DNA of 51,972 nucleotides from Candidatus Polarisedimenticolia bacterium. GTDB taxonomy: Bacteria > Acidobacteriota > Polarisedimenticolia > Gp22-AA2. Position 1 is the stretch's first letter; each line of letters opens with the position of its first letter. The stretch lies in NCBI GenBank assembly GCA_036001465.1, contig DASYUH010000011.1:1-51972 (forward strand), given 5' to 3'. Positions 29,510-37,229 of the stretch are shown in pieces. The translations under genes and the position numbers were made by a program. The notes under the pieces are model-generated. The model searched no databases. It had not been told where the DNA came from and saw only the letters and a program-made list of their open reading frames with translations.

Positions 29510-29538
29510 CATCTACGACACGGCGCGCTCTTCGTCAA
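29510..29538 (-). promoter_or_regulatory. Possible promoter for the protease-like/TPR gene
   Basis: Minus strand: -35 TTGACG (29538-29533), 17-nt spacer, TAGATG (29515-29510). The -35 overlaps the stop of the preceding glycosyltransferase gene. Confidence 0.4.
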
Positions 29539-31046
29539 GGCGTTTTTTCCGCCTGGGTGAGAGGCACGGCGATCGAGGGGCCCGATCGCGGCCGGACGGC
29601 CTGCGCGAGGGCGAGTATCGGGCGTGCAAGGTAGCCCGCCAGGAACATGAGGAATAACGGCAGGGAGGCGAAATGACCTGCGAGGATGGCCCAGGTCGCG
29701 GCCCCCGCAAAATAGATTCCGAAGAGCAGCTCGACGGCCGCCCAGGCGCGTCCGGCGGCCGATCGCTCGATCGGAGGCTGCCAGTCGCCCGAGCGTCCGA
29801 TCAGCCGACGCTTCGGCGTGCGGGCGAAATCCCGGCGGAGACCGAGGAGCGCGGCGCAGACCGCCCGGGCATTGGTCAGGCTCAGGCCGATGCCGACGCA
29901 CATCAGGACCGGAAGATCGGGGAGCGTGCCCGGCCAGTCGTCGCGCACCCGGCGCTGGGCGCCGACGTAGAAGGCCATGACCGAGAGCGTCGTCAGGAGA
30001 AAAAGCGGCAGGTCGAGGGCCAGCATGATGCCCTGACCGGCTCCACTGCGGACCGCGGTGGCCGGGACGATCAGGAGCGCCAGGAGGACCATCAGCGGAT
30101 AGGAGAGGTTTCCGGTCAGGTGAAAGAGCGCCTCGATCCTGACCGGCGCAGGCAGGCGGGCGCGCAGGAGCCGCGGCAGGATCTTCCTCGCGGTCTGGAT
30201 CGATCCCATCGTCCAGCGGTGCTGCTGCGCCTGGAACGAATCGATGTCCGCCGGAAGCTCGGCCGGAACGACGACCTCCGGCACGAAGACGAACTCCCAG
30301 CCCTGGAGCTGGGCCCGATACGACAGATCGAGGTCCTCGGTCAGGGTGTCGGACTGCCACCCACCGGCCGATTCGATGCAGGCGCGCCGCCACAGGCCTG
30401 CCGTGCCGTTGAAATTGAAGAACCGCCCCGCGCGATGGCGGGCGGCGTGCTCGATGACGAAGTGGCCGTCGAGGAAAATCGCCTGGCTGCGCGTCAGGGC
30501 CGAGTAGTCGCGATTGAGGTGCCCCCAGCGCGCCTGCACCATGCCGGTGCGCGGATCGGAGAAGAACGGCGCGAGATCGAGGAGGAACGAGGGCCCGGGC
30601 AGGAAATCGGCGTCGAACACCGCGACCAGCTCCCCCCGGGCCTGGTCGAGCCCCGCCGCCAGGGCCCCGGCCTTGAATCCGTCCCGGAACGGACGCCTGA
30701 GGTGCCTGATGTCGCGACCCTGCCGGCGCATCTCGTCCACGGCGGCGGCGGCGATGGCCGAGGTGTCGTCGGTCGAATCGTCCAGCACCTGGATCTCCAG
30801 CCGTCCGGACGGGTAGTCCAGATCGCAGGCCGCGCGGATGAGGCGATCGACGACCAGGCGCTCGTTGTAGATTGGCAGCTGCACCGTGATCACCGGAAGC
30901 GCGCCGCAGGGGAGGGCCGGTCGCGGCCTCCCTGGCGGGTGGCGGCGATAGAGACGAAGCAGGTGGTAGCGGTGCCAGCCGTAGGCAGCCAGAAGGGCCA
31001 GCGTGGCGTAGTAGGCCGTGACGATCGACGCGCCGAGGATTCCCAC
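29535..31046 (-). CDS. Membrane GT2 glycosyltransferase, cellulose-synthase-like
   Basis: 503 aa. One N-terminal membrane helix, then a GT-A catalytic domain (about 50-290): PIYNERLVVDRLI, LDDSTDDT, DADF (the DxD metal site), TEDLDLSYR (the catalytic TED) and QQHRW, the Q(Q/R)xRW acceptor-site motif of processive enzymes. Four to five membrane helices follow. It fits the cellulose synthase/hyaluronan synthase/glucomannan synthase-like GT2 group; the sugar is unknown. No BcsB or PilZ-domain partner is adjacent, although a PilZ response regulator lies 9 kb away. GTG start; it is divergent from the 31075 gene with only 28 bp between start codons. Confidence 0.85.
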   Translation of the reverse strand: MGILGASIVTAYYATLALLAAYGWHRYHLLRLYRRHPPGRPRPALPCGALPVITVQLPIYNERLVVDRLIRAACDLDYPSGRLEIQVLDDSTDDTSAIAAAAVDEMRRQGRDIRHLRRPFRDGFKAGALAAGLDQARGELVAVFDADFLPGPSFLLDLAPFFSDPRTGMVQARWGHLNRDYSALTRSQAIFLDGHFVIEHAARHRAGRFFNFNGTAGLWRRACIESAGGWQSDTLTEDLDLSYRAQLQGWEFVFVPEVVVPAELPADIDSFQAQQHRWTMGSIQTARKILPRLLRARLPAPVRIEALFHLTGNLSYPLMVLLALLIVPATAVRSGAGQGIMLALDLPLFLLTTLSVMAFYVGAQRRVRDDWPGTLPDLPVLMCVGIGLSLTNARAVCAALLGLRRDFARTPKRRLIGRSGDWQPPIERSAAGRAWAAVELLFGIYFAGAATWAILAGHFASLPLFLMFLAGYLARPILALAQAVRPRSGPSIAVPLTQAEKTP

Positions 31047-31074: not shown

Positions 31075-32553
31075 GTGCAGCTCAACCGGCCGCCAGCGCT
31101 CGAATCCCTGTCCCGTCTCGCCGTCCTGGGTGCCGCGATCGAGTGCGGTTTCGCCCTGATGCTCCTGAATCCTCCCGGACCGGGGAGGGTCTCCGCCTGG
31201 CTCGTCCTGTTCTTCGCGGTGTTCGCCTGCTATGCGCTGGCGGCACGCGCCGTGCTCCTTGAGCGCCCCGGCGCCTCACGGCCTGTCCTGCGCGTCGTTC
31301 TGGGCTTCGCGATCCTGTTCCGCGTCACCTTCCTGTTCGCCAGTCCGGCCTTGAGCGACGACCTGTACCGCTACCTCTGGGATGGCCGCGCGATCCTGGC
31401 CGGCTCGAATCCGTACTCCGAGGCCCCGGCCGAGTACTCGGACAGGCACCCGGGCGCCGCCGCGACGCAGGACGCCGACTTCGCGCGCCTGGACCATGCG
31501 GACGTGCCGACCGTCTACCCGCCGGCCGCGCAGCTGCTGTTTGCCGCAGGCGCCGCCTTCGGGCGGGGAATCTACGGCATCAAGGCCCTGGTCGTCCTGG
31601 CGGACCTGCTCCTGATCGGCGTCCTCCTGGCGCTCCTGCGGCGGCGGGCGATCCCGGACTCCCGGGTGCTGATCTACGCCTGGAGCCCTCTCGCCGTGAC
31701 CGAAGCGGCGTGGAGCGGCCACATCGAACCCGCGGGAGTCCTGTGCGTGCTGCTGGCCGGCGCCGCGATTATACAAAAGCGGGAGGCGCGGGCCGCGCTC
31801 TCCCTGGCGCTGGGGGGGCTCGTCAAGGTGCTCCCGCTGGTCCTCCTGGCGCCCCTCCTCCGATCGATCCGGGCGCGCTTCGCGGGGCTCGCGCTCCTGG
31901 CCTTCCTTCTCGCCTGGTGGCCGTTCCGCGCCGCCGGCCGGGGCCTCGTCGCCGGGCTGCGCGAGTATGCGGCGCGATGGCTGGGGAACGAATCGTTGTT
32001 CGCGGTCGTCCACGCAGCGCTCGTCTGGATCGACCCGGCCCCGCGCCTGAAGGCCGCCATCGCCTTCGCTCGCCGGCTCGTCCCGCACACCGGCGCGCTC
32101 GATCACCTTTACGGCTGGGTCTACCCGATCGACCTCGCGAAGGGGACCTGCGCCCTGGCGGCCCTGGGCTTCGCCGCCTGGCTCGTGCGCCGCCGCCTCG
32201 AGCCCTTGCGCGGTCTCTACCTCATGACCGGGGCGGTCCTGCTTCTGTCGCCCACGGCCCACCCGTGGTACGTCCTCTGGATCCTGCCGTGGCTCTGCCT
32301 GTTCCCGTCGGCCCCGTGGATTCTCCTGAGCGGCCTGGTCCCCCTGGCGTACGTCAATCTGGGCGCTCCGGGCCGGGAGCTCGAGCCGCATCCCTGGGTC
32401 CGCCTGGTCGAATACGCTCCGTTCTTCGCGCTGCTCGCCCTGGAGCGCCTCCGCAGAGCGCCCCGCGCGGGCGGGGCGCAGGAGCGCGGAAGAGAGGCGG
32501 AGGACCGGGCAGGCGGGACGCCGGCCCCCGTCGCCGGCCCGCCTGCCGGATGA
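31075..32553 (+). CDS. GT-C integral membrane glycosyltransferase (GT87/MptB-like)
   Basis: 492 aa with about ten hydrophobic helices. The first periplasmic loop has the acidic pair in SPALSDDLYRYLWDGRA, then GSNPYSEAP and VPTVYPPAAQLLF, the pattern of polyprenol-phosphate-dependent mannosyltransferases of the GT87/MptA-B/PIG-M kind. Later, HPWYVLWILPW fits the conserved C-terminal helix pair. It should transfer a sugar from a lipid-phosphate donor on the outer face of the membrane. The polar tail after ~465 (APRAGGAQERGREAED) is not conserved. The stop overlaps an ATG of the following ketosynthase (ATGA at 32550), suggesting one operon. Confidence 0.75.
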   Translation: MQLNRPPALESLSRLAVLGAAIECGFALMLLNPPGPGRVSAWLVLFFAVFACYALAARAVLLERPGASRPVLRVVLGFAILFRVTFLFASPALSDDLYRYLWDGRAILAGSNPYSEAPAEYSDRHPGAAATQDADFARLDHADVPTVYPPAAQLLFAAGAAFGRGIYGIKALVVLADLLLIGVLLALLRRRAIPDSRVLIYAWSPLAVTEAAWSGHIEPAGVLCVLLAGAAIIQKREARAALSLALGGLVKVLPLVLLAPLLRSIRARFAGLALLAFLLAWWPFRAAGRGLVAGLREYAARWLGNESLFAVVHAALVWIDPAPRLKAAIAFARRLVPHTGALDHLYGWVYPIDLAKGTCALAALGFAAWLVRRRLEPLRGLYLMTGAVLLLSPTAHPWYVLWILPWLCLFPSAPWILLSGLVPLAYVNLGAPGRELEPHPWVRLVEYAPFFALLALERLRRAPRAGGAQERGREAEDRAGGTPAPVAGPPAG

Positions 32554-32567
32554 TAGACTCGCTGTCG

Positions 32568-33806
32568 ATGTCTGCCGTGGTGACCGGCCTGGGCGTCGTG
32601 TCTCCCTTCGGCGTGGGAGTGGAGGCGTTTCGCGCCGGACTGCGCCGGGGACGGAGCGCGACGCGCCGCATCGGCCTCTTCGATCCCGGCGACCTGCCGT
32701 GCCAGGTCGCGGCCGAGGTCCCCGGCTTCGACGCGCGGGCCTTCCTCGATCCGGACGACCTGACGCGCGTCGGCCGCGTCGTGCCCCTGGCGTTCGCGGC
32801 GGCGCGGGAGGCGATCGAGGACGCGGGCCTGCGCGACGGCCTCTCCGAGGACGGGTACCGGGCGATCGGCGTCGTCCTCGGGACCGGCGCCGGGGCGATC
32901 GATTTCGCGGAGCGTCAGTACGAGGCCTACTACCGCTCCGGGATCCACCGCGTCAATCCGTTCGCCATCTCGTCGTCGGTGGTCGGGATGCTCAGCAGCG
33001 AGATGAGCATCCGCTTCGGCTTCGCCGGTCCGTCGCACGTTCTCAGCAACGGCTGCACCAGCTCCACCGACGCCATCGGCTACGCCATGCACGCCATCCG
33101 CCGCGGCGAGCACGCCGTGCTCCTGACCGGCGGCGCGGAGGCCTGCATCACCCGTGGGATGATGGAGGGGTTCTGCCGCATGCGGGCCGCGGCCGTCGGG
33201 TGGAACGACCGGCCCGAGAAGGCGTCACGACCCTTCAATCTCAACCGCAGCGGCTTCGTCCTGGGGGAGGGGGCCTTCCTGATGGTCCTCGAGGACGAGG
33301 AGCATGCGCGGCGCCGGGGAGCGCGGATCTACGGCGAGGTCGCCGGATACGCCTCGACCTGCGACGCGCATCACCGCGTGCACATGAGCCACGACGGCGC
33401 CGAGTCGACCCGGGCCATGGAGCTGGCGCTGTCCTCGGCCGGTGAGAGCCGGGACTCGATCGACTACATCAGCCTGCACGGCACCTCCACGAAACAGAAC
33501 GACCGGGTCGAGTCCCTGGCGGTCCGGGCGCTCCTGGGCCGCCGCGCGCACTCGGTGCCGGCGTCGTCGATCAAATCGATGATCGGCCACGCCCAGGGAG
33601 CCTGCGGTGCCGCGGCGGTGCTGGCGACCCTCCTCGGCATGCGCGATGGCTTCCTGCCGCCGACCATCAACTACGAAGTCCCGGACCCGGAGTGCGATCT
33701 CGACTACGTGCCGAACGAGGCGCGGCCCGGGGCTCCCCGCCTCGCGCTGGGCAACTGCATCGGGTTCGGCTCGAAGAACTCCGCCCTGGTCCTGCGGGCG
33801 GTATGA
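32568..33806 (+). CDS. Beta-ketoacyl-ACP synthase, FabF-like
   Basis: 412 aa thiolase-fold condensing enzyme. The triad matches FabF numbering closely: Cys163 in SNGCTSS, His304 in SLHGTSTKQND, His341 in MIGHAQGACG, and GFGSKNS near the end. The NGCTSS active-site sequence differs from the usual housekeeping TACAT/TACAS type and is like condensing enzymes of secondary lipid or polyene clusters. ATG 32568 gives MSAVVTGLGVVSPFG, the family start; ATG 32550 overlaps the upstream stop and would add six residues. It overlaps the next gene as ATGA. No ACP gene is in the window, so it must borrow one or act with an unusual carrier. Confidence 0.88.
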   Translation: MSAVVTGLGVVSPFGVGVEAFRAGLRRGRSATRRIGLFDPGDLPCQVAAEVPGFDARAFLDPDDLTRVGRVVPLAFAAAREAIEDAGLRDGLSEDGYRAIGVVLGTGAGAIDFAERQYEAYYRSGIHRVNPFAISSSVVGMLSSEMSIRFGFAGPSHVLSNGCTSSTDAIGYAMHAIRRGEHAVLLTGGAEACITRGMMEGFCRMRAAAVGWNDRPEKASRPFNLNRSGFVLGEGAFLMVLEDEEHARRRGARIYGEVAGYASTCDAHHRVHMSHDGAESTRAMELALSSAGESRDSIDYISLHGTSTKQNDRVESLAVRALLGRRAHSVPASSIKSMIGHAQGACGAAAVLATLLGMRDGFLPPTINYEVPDPECDLDYVPNEARPGAPRLALGNCIGFGSKNSALVLRAV

Positions 33807-35005
33807 GCGGCGGCCCGGTCCTGGACGCCGTGGTGGTGGGAGGCGGCCCCGCGGGATCGACGATGGCCACGCTCCTGCGCCGCGCCGGCGCCGCCGTGGC
33901 CCTGTGCGACGCGGCGCGCTTCCCGCGCCACAAGATCTGCGGCGAGTACGTGCCGCCCGCGGCGATCGAGACGTTCGCCCGCCTGGGGGTGCTGACGCAG
34001 GTGGAGGCCGCCTCCCCGCTCCGGCACGTCGGGATGGCGGTCATCTCCCCGGGCGGCACGAAGGTTCTGGGCCGCTATGGCGGAGAGTCGCGCGGATTCG
34101 CGCTGCGCCGCTACGACCTCGACCGCGTCCTCCTGGACGGCGCGCGCCGCGCCGGCGCCACCGTCCTGGAGGAGACGCGCGTCACGGACCTTTCGCGCGA
34201 GGCCGACGGTGTTCTCGCGGTGCGGCTCCAGGCCGGCGGCACCCTCCGCGCCCGCGCGGTCGTCGGGGCCGACGGCCGCAACTCGGTCGTGGCGCGCCGG
34301 CTGGATCTGCGGCGACGGGAGCCGCGGCATCGCAAATGGGCGGTCATGGGCCACTTTCGCGACGTCGAGACTCCGGGTGACCACGGCGAGATGATCGTGA
34401 CTCCGTACGGCTACTGCGGCATCAACCCGCTGCCGCAAGGGCTGGCGAACGTCTGCATCGTGGTCGACCGCGCCGATCTCCGCGCGTCCGCCCCGGGCCG
34501 CGAGCGGCTGGCGGCGTTCTTCAGTCGGCGCATCGCCGCGCATCCCCTGACCCGGAGGCGGATGGCGCGCGCCTCCCTCGCGGCGGGGCTCTGGGCCACC
34601 GGGCCCATGGCGTGCAGGGCGTCGGCCTGCATCGCCGACGGGGTCCTCCTGGTCGGGGACGCCGCGGGGTTCTACGATCCGTTCACGGGGGAGGGGATCG
34701 GCATGGCCCTGCGCGGCGCGGAGCTGGCGGCCGGCGTGCTCGTCCGGGCCCTCGAGCGGGGGGACGTGACGCGCCGGACCCTCGCGCCGTACGCGGCCGC
34801 GAGACGGGCGGCGTTCCGGGATCGACTCCGCCTCGACCGCGTCCTTCAATCCGTGCTCAGGCGTCCGCGCCTCGCCGACTGGGCGGCGCGCCGGCTCGAT
34901 CGGGATCGGGATCTCGCGGATCTCCTGGCGCGCGTGGCGGGCGACACCGTCGAGGCCCGGGCGGTGCTCGGTCCGGGCTTCGTGACAAGGCTGCTCCTGG
35001 CCTGA
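33803..35005 (+). CDS. FAD-dependent oxidoreductase, geranylgeranyl-reductase family
   Basis: 400 aa. The FAD-binding Rossmann start VVVGGGPAGSTMATLLRRAG is followed by RFPRHKICGEYVPP, characteristic of the geranylgeranyl reductase/halogenase-like group. The second FAD motif GDAAGFYDPFTGEGIGMALRGAELAAG lies near 280. Members reduce isoprenoid double bonds or oxidise/halogenate polyketide-like substrates. The ATG overlaps the ketosynthase stop (ATGA 33803-33806), so the two are translationally coupled and likely act in one pathway. The C-terminal ~60 residues are helical, as in the family. Confidence 0.85.
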   Translation: MSGGPVLDAVVVGGGPAGSTMATLLRRAGAAVALCDAARFPRHKICGEYVPPAAIETFARLGVLTQVEAASPLRHVGMAVISPGGTKVLGRYGGESRGFALRRYDLDRVLLDGARRAGATVLEETRVTDLSREADGVLAVRLQAGGTLRARAVVGADGRNSVVARRLDLRRREPRHRKWAVMGHFRDVETPGDHGEMIVTPYGYCGINPLPQGLANVCIVVDRADLRASAPGRERLAAFFSRRIAAHPLTRRRMARASLAAGLWATGPMACRASACIADGVLLVGDAAGFYDPFTGEGIGMALRGAELAAGVLVRALERGDVTRRTLAPYAAARRAAFRDRLRLDRVLQSVLRRPRLADWAARRLDRDRDLADLLARVAGDTVEARAVLGPGFVTRLLLA

Positions 35006-35027
35006 GGGCTCCCAGGTGGAAACCGGG

Positions 35028-35591
35028 ATGGATCGGGCCTCTGCGCTCTACATCGCCTTCGTGGCGGCCGCCGCGCTTCTGGCCGCCGGCGAGCGCCTGT
35101 GGGCGCGGCGCAACGAGATCCGCCTCCTGCGAGACGGCGCGGAGGAGCTGGCGCCGGGACTGTTCCGGCTCATGGCGCCCGCCTACGCGCTCGTCTTTCC
35201 CGCGGCGATCGCCGAGCGCCTCCTGGCCGGCCGGCGGCCCGCCGCCTGGCTCGCGGCGTCGATGGTCGTCCTGTTCGCGGCCGCCAAGGGTCTGAAGCTC
35301 TGGGCCGTGAAGTCCCTCGGCGATCAGTGGACCATGCGCGTCATCCTGCCGCGTGCCTTTCGCGTGGCGACCGGCGGGCCGTACCGCTTCATCCGGCATC
35401 CCAACTACCTCGCGGTGATCGGCGAGCACCTGGCGCTGCCCCTGGCGGGCGGGGCCTGGATGACGGCGATCGGCTTCGCCGTCCTGTTCGGCGCCATCCT
35501 CAGGGTGCGCCTCGTCACCGAGGAGGCGGCGCTCCTGGCGCGTCCCGGGTATGCGGCCGCCATGGCCGGCAAGAGGCGTTTCCTCCCGTGA
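35028..35591 (+). CDS. Isoprenylcysteine carboxyl methyltransferase-like membrane methyltransferase
   Basis: 187 aa with about four membrane helices. The C-terminal SAM-binding core TGGPYRFIRHPNYLAVIGEHLALPL followed by a helix and a conserved Glu (VTEEAALL) is the ICMT/PEMT-type motif. In bacteria such enzymes next to polyketide synthases methylate lipid-like products rather than prenylated proteins. It begins 22 nt after the flavoprotein gene; ATG 35028 has AGGTGG about 9 nt upstream, and GTG 35016 is an alternative. Together with the ketosynthase and the flavoprotein it forms a likely three-enzyme set. Confidence 0.8.
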   Translation: MDRASALYIAFVAAAALLAAGERLWARRNEIRLLRDGAEELAPGLFRLMAPAYALVFPAAIAERLLAGRRPAAWLAASMVVLFAAAKGLKLWAVKSLGDQWTMRVILPRAFRVATGGPYRFIRHPNYLAVIGEHLALPLAGGAWMTAIGFAVLFGAILRVRLVTEEAALLARPGYAAAMAGKRRFLP

Positions 35592-35690: not shown

Positions 35691-37229
35691 ATGATGGTGC
35701 ACGTCCGGGAACGGCACTGGGCCGATGAGATCGCCGACGAGATCCTGAAGCTGGGCCCGGGACCCCACGAGATCTCCACCGGCATCTCGCCGTCCGGCGA
35801 GATCCACATCGGCAACCTGCGCGAGGTGATCACCGCGGACGTCGTCTACCGCGTCTTGAAGGAACGCGGCGTCGAGGTGACCCTCGACTACGTCGCCGAC
35901 AACTTCGATCCGCTGCGCAAGGTCTACCCGTTTCTCGACGCGTCCGTCTACTCGAACCACATCGGCAAGCCGCTGTCGGAGTTCCCCTGTCCCTGCGGAC
36001 GGCATCCCTCGTATGCGGCGCACTTCGTCGAGCCGTTCCTGGCCTCGCTCGAGCGGCTGAGGATCGGGGTCAAGGTGATCTACGCCGACCAGATGTACAA
36101 GTCGGGGCTCCTGGTGCCGCAGATCCTCCAGGCGCTCAAGGGGCGCGACGCCATCGCCCGCATCCTGCACGAGTGCACCGGGCGCAACATGGAGCCCGAG
36201 TGGAGCCCCTTCAATCCCATCTGCGGGACCTGCTTCCGGATGACCGACACCCTGGTCACGGGCTTTTCCGAGAAGGAGGAGACGGTCGACTACACCTGCG
36301 CCTGCGGAGGACGCGGGACGGTGTCGATGCGCGGGGGCGGCAAGCTGACCTGGCGGGTCGACTGGCCGGCCCGCTGGGCCCGCATCCCGGTCACCATCGA
36401 GCCGTTCGGCAAGGACCACGCCACGCGCGGCGGCTCGTACGACACCGGCGCGCTCATCTGCCGGGAGATCTTCAAGTCGCCTCCGCCGTTTCCCGTGACC
36501 TACGAGTGGATCTCCTTCAAGGGGAAGGGGGAGCTCAAGAAGAGCAAGGGGAACGTCCTGTCGGTGCACCGGATGCTCGAGGTCCTGCCTCCCGAGGTGC
36601 TGCGCTACCTCGTGGTGAAGACGCGCCCGATGCGCTCGATCGCATTCGATCCCGGGCTGCCGCTCCTGTCGCTCATCGACGAGTTCGACGACGCCGCGTC
36701 CCGCGGCCGCGACCCGCGCGCCCTGCAGCTCGCGGGGGCCGACCAGTTCACGCCGGTCAGCGTGCCGTTCCGCCACCTGGTGAACGTCGTGCAGATGGCC
36801 GATTTCGATCTCGACCAGGCGGTCGTCATCCTGAAGCGCAACAACTACCCGGTCGCCGATCCGGCCGCCCTCAAGGAGCGCGCCGGCTACGCCATCCGCT
36901 GGCTCAAGGAGTTCGCGCCGCCCGAGGTGAAATTCTCGATCGAGCGCTCCCTGCCGGCCGTCGCCGCCCGGCTGGACGAGCGGCAGCGGGCCTTCCTGTC
37001 GCGGCTCGCCGCGGGGCTGCGCCCCGGTCTGGACGGCGAGGCGATCCACGCGCTGGTGTACGACCTGGCGAAGGAGGTCGGGCTCGAACCGGCGACGGCC
37101 GCCTTCGAGGCGATCTACCTTGCGGTTCTCGGCCAGGCGAAAGGGCCGAGGGCCGGCTGGTTCCTGGCGTTCCTCGATCGGGAGTTCGTGATCTCCCGCC
37201 TGCGCGAGGCGGGGCGTGCGGCGGCATGA
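35691..37229 (+). CDS. lysS: Lysyl-tRNA synthetase, class I (archaeal type)
   Basis: 512 aa. Charges tRNA-Lys by the class I route. The HIGH-type motif is PSGEIHIGNL (39-41 = HIG) and the KMSKS-type loop is KKSKG at 283-287. Cys pairs (PICGTCF, CACGG) form the zinc-binding insertion seen in LysRS1. The C-terminal half is the helical anticodon-binding cage. This form is typical of archaea and occurs in some alphaproteobacteria, spirochaetes and other phyla; most bacteria use the class II enzyme. A second ATG follows directly (35694), and GAGGGAGCGG stands before both. A possible -10 (TATGAT, 35632-35637) lacks a good -35. The stop overlaps the next gene (ATGA). Confidence 0.95.
   Translation: MMVHVRERHWADEIADEILKLGPGPHEISTGISPSGEIHIGNLREVITADVVYRVLKERGVEVTLDYVADNFDPLRKVYPFLDASVYSNHIGKPLSEFPCPCGRHPSYAAHFVEPFLASLERLRIGVKVIYADQMYKSGLLVPQILQALKGRDAIARILHECTGRNMEPEWSPFNPICGTCFRMTDTLVTGFSEKEETVDYTCACGGRGTVSMRGGGKLTWRVDWPARWARIPVTIEPFGKDHATRGGSYDTGALICREIFKSPPPFPVTYEWISFKGKGELKKSKGNVLSVHRMLEVLPPEVLRYLVVKTRPMRSIAFDPGLPLLSLIDEFDDAASRGRDPRALQLAGADQFTPVSVPFRHLVNVVQMADFDLDQAVVILKRNNYPVADPAALKERAGYAIRWLKEFAPPEVKFSIERSLPAVAARLDERQRAFLSRLAAGLRPGLDGEAIHALVYDLAKEVGLEPATAAFEAIYLAVLGQAKGPRAGWFLAFLDREFVISRLREAGRAAA

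Follow-up and report, generated by a model that had tools for sequence, protein, structure and literature searches.

The window, a 51,972-nt stretch from a Candidatus Polarisedimenticolia bacterium (contig DASYUH010000011.1; source genome 4.58 Mb, 100% complete), carries on its forward strand a compact run of genes in which a ketosynthase (KS; ATG at 32550 to TGA at 33806) is followed by a flavoprotein (ATG at 33803, to 35005) and an ICMT-family methyltransferase (ATG at 35028, to 35591), the first two joined by an ATGA overlap and the last set off by a 22-nt gap. These coordinates and junctions, and the NGCTSS active site, which reads SNGCTSS in the window KS, are as the initial annotation gave them, and profile searches bore out its three domain calls, matching the KS to the ketoacyl-synt N and C domains, the geranylgeranyl reductase (GGR)-like flavoprotein to FAD_binding_3 and TIGR02032, and the ICMT-like protein to PF04140. 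A GT-C glycosyltransferase had also been described as coupled upstream, and this gene (31075..32553, + strand) does overlap the KS start with its own stop codon (32553) through an ATGA; its product is a GT87-like membrane protein that scores 24.9 bits against PF09594, for which the cut-off is 25. Divergent to it lies a family 2 glycosyltransferase (29535..31046, - strand; PF13641) that is kept in family f1 and is a candidate for a link to the operon. Just 3' of the operon is a lysyl-tRNA synthetase of the archaeal-type class I (35691..37229, + strand; TIGR00467, 501 bits), a flank likewise kept in family f1, which we place outside the pathway.

The source genome has nine KS matches, and its housekeeping FabF is a different gene, located on contig 7 in a fab cluster whose members, judged by their order and the starts of their sequences, we read as PlsX, FabH, FabD, FabG and ACP; this copy scored 634 bits against the FabF equivalog TIGR03150, and the window KS scored 436 bits, below the curated cut-off of 493.75. 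We therefore rejected the window KS as the sole copy or housekeeping FabF. In careful trees, the placement that the initial annotation had proposed as a check, the window KS fell in a clade of its own (100/100 support) outside FabF, KSalpha (itself separate at 100/100) and CLF. The nearest large group was KSalpha, with a sisterhood supported at 74/98, and AU tests retained the alternatives (p 0.36 and 0.19), so we do not claim a firm relationship to the type II PKS KSalpha. Named relatives with the closest KS were almost all Acidobacteria, on which basis we take the phylum sampled below to be Acidobacteriota, and the best structural matches were FabF enzymes (Z 63). No adjacent chain-length factor appeared in the gene lists of the window and its relatives, no ACP was found beside the KS, and the housekeeping fab cluster, with its ACP, sits on a different contig from the operon. 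The initial annotation had named as its refutation a KS that grouped with housekeeping FabF as the only copy in an unconserved neighbourhood; what we found is a housekeeping FabF elsewhere in the genome, a KS clade apart from it and a gene order that is kept, as described below. The same genome holds two further type II clusters, on contig 8 (L106:6355-10103) and contig 71 (L107:7368-13594), with a short ACP-like ORF, a FabZ-like dehydratase and pairs of KS and KSbeta-like genes, which resemble polyene-type systems.

An alignment of the KS clade showed the Cys-His-His triad, the decarboxylation lysine Lys335 and the gating Phe400 to be invariant in 50/50 rows, the residues looked for in the elongating KS superfamily. 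The gate loops are altered: Gly402 (published numbering) is replaced by Ser in 50/50 rows and loop 2 is rewritten. The roles of these loops, and the Asn265 of the processive actinorhodin KS, have been described (PMC7138838). At this position in gate loop 2 the clade has Asp or Glu, so that the residue gives no pointer to an iterative non-reducing enzyme, and, together with Phe400 and Asn404, it belongs to the FAS-type gate residues that the clade keeps; its retention argues against a processive KS of the actinorhodin type.

The flavoprotein (33803..35005, + strand) scored 169.4 bits against the GG-red-SF model TIGR02032 (cut-off 158.8), which upholds the superfamily behind its earlier description as geranylgeranyl-reductase-like; the reductase function that this name implies fared less well. 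Geranylgeranyl reductases carry the substrate motif YxWxFP and flavin-dependent halogenases the motif WxWxIP. The former is absent from the window flavoprotein, which has GYCGINP at that place, and the latter is absent as well, the tryptophans having no match in that stretch, though the fold is similar (Z 46). A structure model (pLDDT 92) was closest to flavin halogenases (Z 44-46), ahead of a GGR-like reductase (Z 39) and aromatic hydroxylases (Z ~37). The missing reductase motif and a predicted fold nearest to that of flavin halogenases make oxidation a likelier role than reduction, and we infer that the protein is more likely an oxygenase, probably a monooxygenase, than a reductase.

The final gene (35028..35591, + strand) encodes an ICMT/SrsB-like membrane protein, a predicted O-methyltransferase, that scored 71.2 bits against the ICMT superfamily PF04140 (gathering cut-off 24) and 33.6 bits against the protein-S-isoprenylcysteine O-methyltransferase equivalog NF040696, below the cut-off of 160; a PDB search with it returned chance matches only. 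SrsB is reportedly, by the title of a 2012 paper of Nakano, an O-methyltransferase in phenolic lipid synthesis. In an alignment the window ICMT shares an HPNY motif with ICMTs linked to type III PKS (T3PKS), and the KS-linked ICMTs look separate from these (210-256 bits vs 122-146), on a profile that was made from the KS-linked ones. Additional candidate modifying enzymes accompany some loci. Several KS-flavoprotein-ICMT loci have, divergent to the KS, a membrane protein on the DUF1295/ICMT borderline (L174:7776-8465) that is possibly a second methyltransferase or a reductase, and in G064 (L164:5130-8457) a radical SAM/B12-binding protein, a possible C-methyltransferase, lies between the flavoprotein and the ICMT.

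The initial annotation suggested searching for the three-gene order in other genomes, and this order was found in the window's family and in six others. Within the family, the order GT-KS-flavoprotein-ICMT followed by the class I lysyl-tRNA synthetase is whole in G004 and interrupted by extra genes before the ICMT in G001, while in G003, G005 and G007 the locus lies at a contig end and only part of the order can be seen; gene order is thus repeated in five further genomes, with the ICMT found in four, and such repetition is not expected by chance. Orthologues of the GT87-like gene (60-65% identity) lie upstream of the KS in G001, G003, G004 and G007, and the gene is linked to the KS only in this family. 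In G003 the flavoprotein gene (L100:8502-9752) is split over two frames with ~50 residues unmatched, and no ICMT is seen before the contig end.

Across the phylum the KS clade is present in 87 of 396 sampled genomes (89 matched at E 1e-105, minus two with 43-44% identity that we classed as FabF). The conserved neighbourhood was also confirmed at this scale: of the 87 genomes, 63 have a same-family flavoprotein gene no more than 3 kb from the KS, and 60 have it no more than 1 kb away; 26 of 89 KS genes have no flavoprotein nearby; Terriglobales-type genomes have the KS alone. Two architectures recur, KS-flavoprotein-ICMT (13 loci examined, in the six other families) and KS-class I methyltransferase-flavoprotein (18 loci). 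In L165-L174 a class I methyltransferase gene 2-3 kb ahead of the KS resembled a cluster member but is probably an unrelated neighbour, and G017 was rejected as a methyltransferase-flavoprotein-ICMT arrangement, its last gene being merely PEMT-like and slightly below the cut-off. In G355 (L175:9977-11302) the KS of the operon is split by a frame break, either a real pseudogene or an assembly error, and for this reason the locus is missing from our KS search list.

The initial annotation held that related trios, usually with a type III PKS, exist and that here the KS takes the synthase position, and both statements agree with what we found. The window's own class has T3PKS-ICMT-flavoprotein operons in two families, f4 and f6 (L217-219 and L221-223), with the same gene content as srsABC, and in family f47 T3PKS-methyltransferase-flavoprotein loci (L161-163) contain the same tailoring gene families and no KS; the f47 flavoproteins are the closest relatives outside the window's family (48-51% identity). 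In the flavoprotein tree a T3PKS-linked clade (99/92) is nested among KS-linked ones (97/88). The same profiles also matched a Streptomyces T3PKS-ICMT-flavoprotein locus, and records from Stenotrophomonas, Azospirillum and Lysinibacillus contain annotated T3PKS-ICMT pairs. One T3PKS operon of the window's class has an AMP-binding ligase between the ICMT and the flavoprotein (L218:7706-9448), which suggests fatty-acyl activation. T3PKS was found in 127 of the 396 genomes and, with the KS clade in 87, the two occur together in one (G091) vs ~27.9 expected; the Fisher value of 6e-16 for this exclusion ignores shared ancestry and MAG gaps and is descriptive only. Both kinds of genome exist within nine families and within two genera (g109, and g69 with G091 itself). 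G091 holds a KS-methyltransferase-flavoprotein operon and a separate T3PKS-ICMT pair (L235, L236). The window's own genome, 100% complete, has no Chal_sti_synt match above cut-off. We rejected an in-place replacement of T3PKS by the KS, as shared flanking genes were not found outside the window's family. Gene context gives good support to the view that the KS occupies the T3PKS position in a phenolic-lipid-type operon. Most of the interpretation in the initial annotation is upheld, with glycosylation as a possible addition confined to the window's family.

We consider it roughly an even chance that the operon encodes a phenolic-lipid-type (SrsABC/HidABC-like) pathway with a FabF-type KS in place of the type III PKS, and we infer all of the chemistry of this KS-flavoprotein-ICMT pathway as follows. 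The KS would load a long-chain acyl group from the acyl-ACP of the housekeeping FAS onto its cysteine and condense it with malonyl-ACP, without reduction, in one or more rounds, and the beta-keto product would cyclise or be released, giving a long-chain polyketide lipid of the alkylpyrone, resorcinol or a similar type. An oxygen would then be methylated by the ICMT-family enzyme (in other lineages, by the class I methyltransferase), the flavoprotein would hydroxylate the head group or oxidise it, possibly as far as a quinone, and in the window's family the GT-C enzyme may add a sugar. By analogy, given the phenolic-lipid O-methylation reported for SrsB and the alkylresorcinols made by Planctomycetota and hierridin operons, the likeliest class of product is a long-chain polyketide lipid that has been methylated and oxidised. 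More tentatively, and with the balance somewhat against it, a lone FabF-type KS without a chain-length factor may make an unreduced long-chain head group (a pyrone, resorcinol or quinone precursor), in which case T3PKS and elongating KS would have replaced one another several times within a single lipid pathway across the phylum. If the phenolic-lipid-type reading is true, one lipid pathway swapped its core synthase and kept its tailoring genes, a FabF-like enzyme has unusual chemistry, and polyketide lipids that are methylated and oxidised (membrane quinones, perhaps) are predicted in roughly one in five of the genomes sampled from the phylum, made by operons that escape genome-mining rules keyed to type III PKS. 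We found no description of this KS operon in the open-licence papers searched.

A less likely alternative is that the KS carries out just one specialised condensation step on intermediates of the FAS, whose reductases then finish the chain of what would be an unusual fatty acyl or beta-keto lipid, and that the flavoprotein and ICMT modify this fatty lipid and not a polyketide ring. The FAS-type gate residues Phe400, Asn404 and Asp/Glu265, the FabF enzymes at the top of the structural matches (Z 63) and the complete fab cluster with its ACP are all in keeping with it, but the KS falls below the FabF equivalog cut-off that the housekeeping copy exceeds (436 and 634 bits vs 493.75), its partners are those of T3PKS operons, and KS and T3PKS nearly exclude each other.

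We think it improbable that the locus modifies isoprenoid lipids, with the flavoprotein as a true prenyl reductase, the ICMT methylating a prenyl-lipid head group and the KS supplying an acyl part. GYCGINP in place of the reductase motif, a fold nearer to halogenases than to the reductase, an ICMT far below its equivalog cut-off and the pairing of the same flavoprotein family with T3PKS all count against this, although the flavoprotein exceeds the TIGR02032 superfamily cut-off and the ICMT matches PF04140. More improbable still is that the three genes are conserved neighbours with no common pathway: the KS does stand alone in several lineages, and in G001 the flavoprotein and the ICMT are separated by other genes, but the adjacency is repeated in many families in two architectures, and the genes have start-stop overlaps.

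The window KS resembles FabF in fold, in its Cys-His-His triad and in sequence (~40% identity), but differs in its separate clade, altered gate loops, GCTSS active site, sub-cut-off equivalog score and tailoring neighbours. To the type II PKS KSalpha/CLF it is ~43% identical, with shared GCTS and Asp features past the cysteine and a weak sisterhood in trees; unlike these it has no adjacent CLF or ACP, lies outside the KSalpha clade and has D/E, not N, at 265. As for srsABC/hidABC-type operons, profiles and alignments place an ICMT or class I methyltransferase and a FAD enzyme of the same families at these loci, and the type III PKS of such operons is missing from the complete genome of the window. 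In Streptomyces griseus srsABC, SrsB is of the ICMT family and SrsC a monooxygenase (PMC6669644); this compact operon has a methyltransferase and FAD enzyme of families related to those of the window, and its T3PKS form is found in the window's class, but its synthase is a type III PKS, whereas the window has a FabF-type KS in the order KS-flavoprotein-ICMT. The hierridin (hidABC) and Planctomycetota operons, which make alkylresorcinols (PMC10896814), also use a type III PKS, and differ from the window in that the latter has an ICMT; they share with it a methyltransferase and FAD oxidoreductase adjoining a lipid polyketide synthase, and their layout is that of the KS-methyltransferase-flavoprotein form of other members of the phylum.
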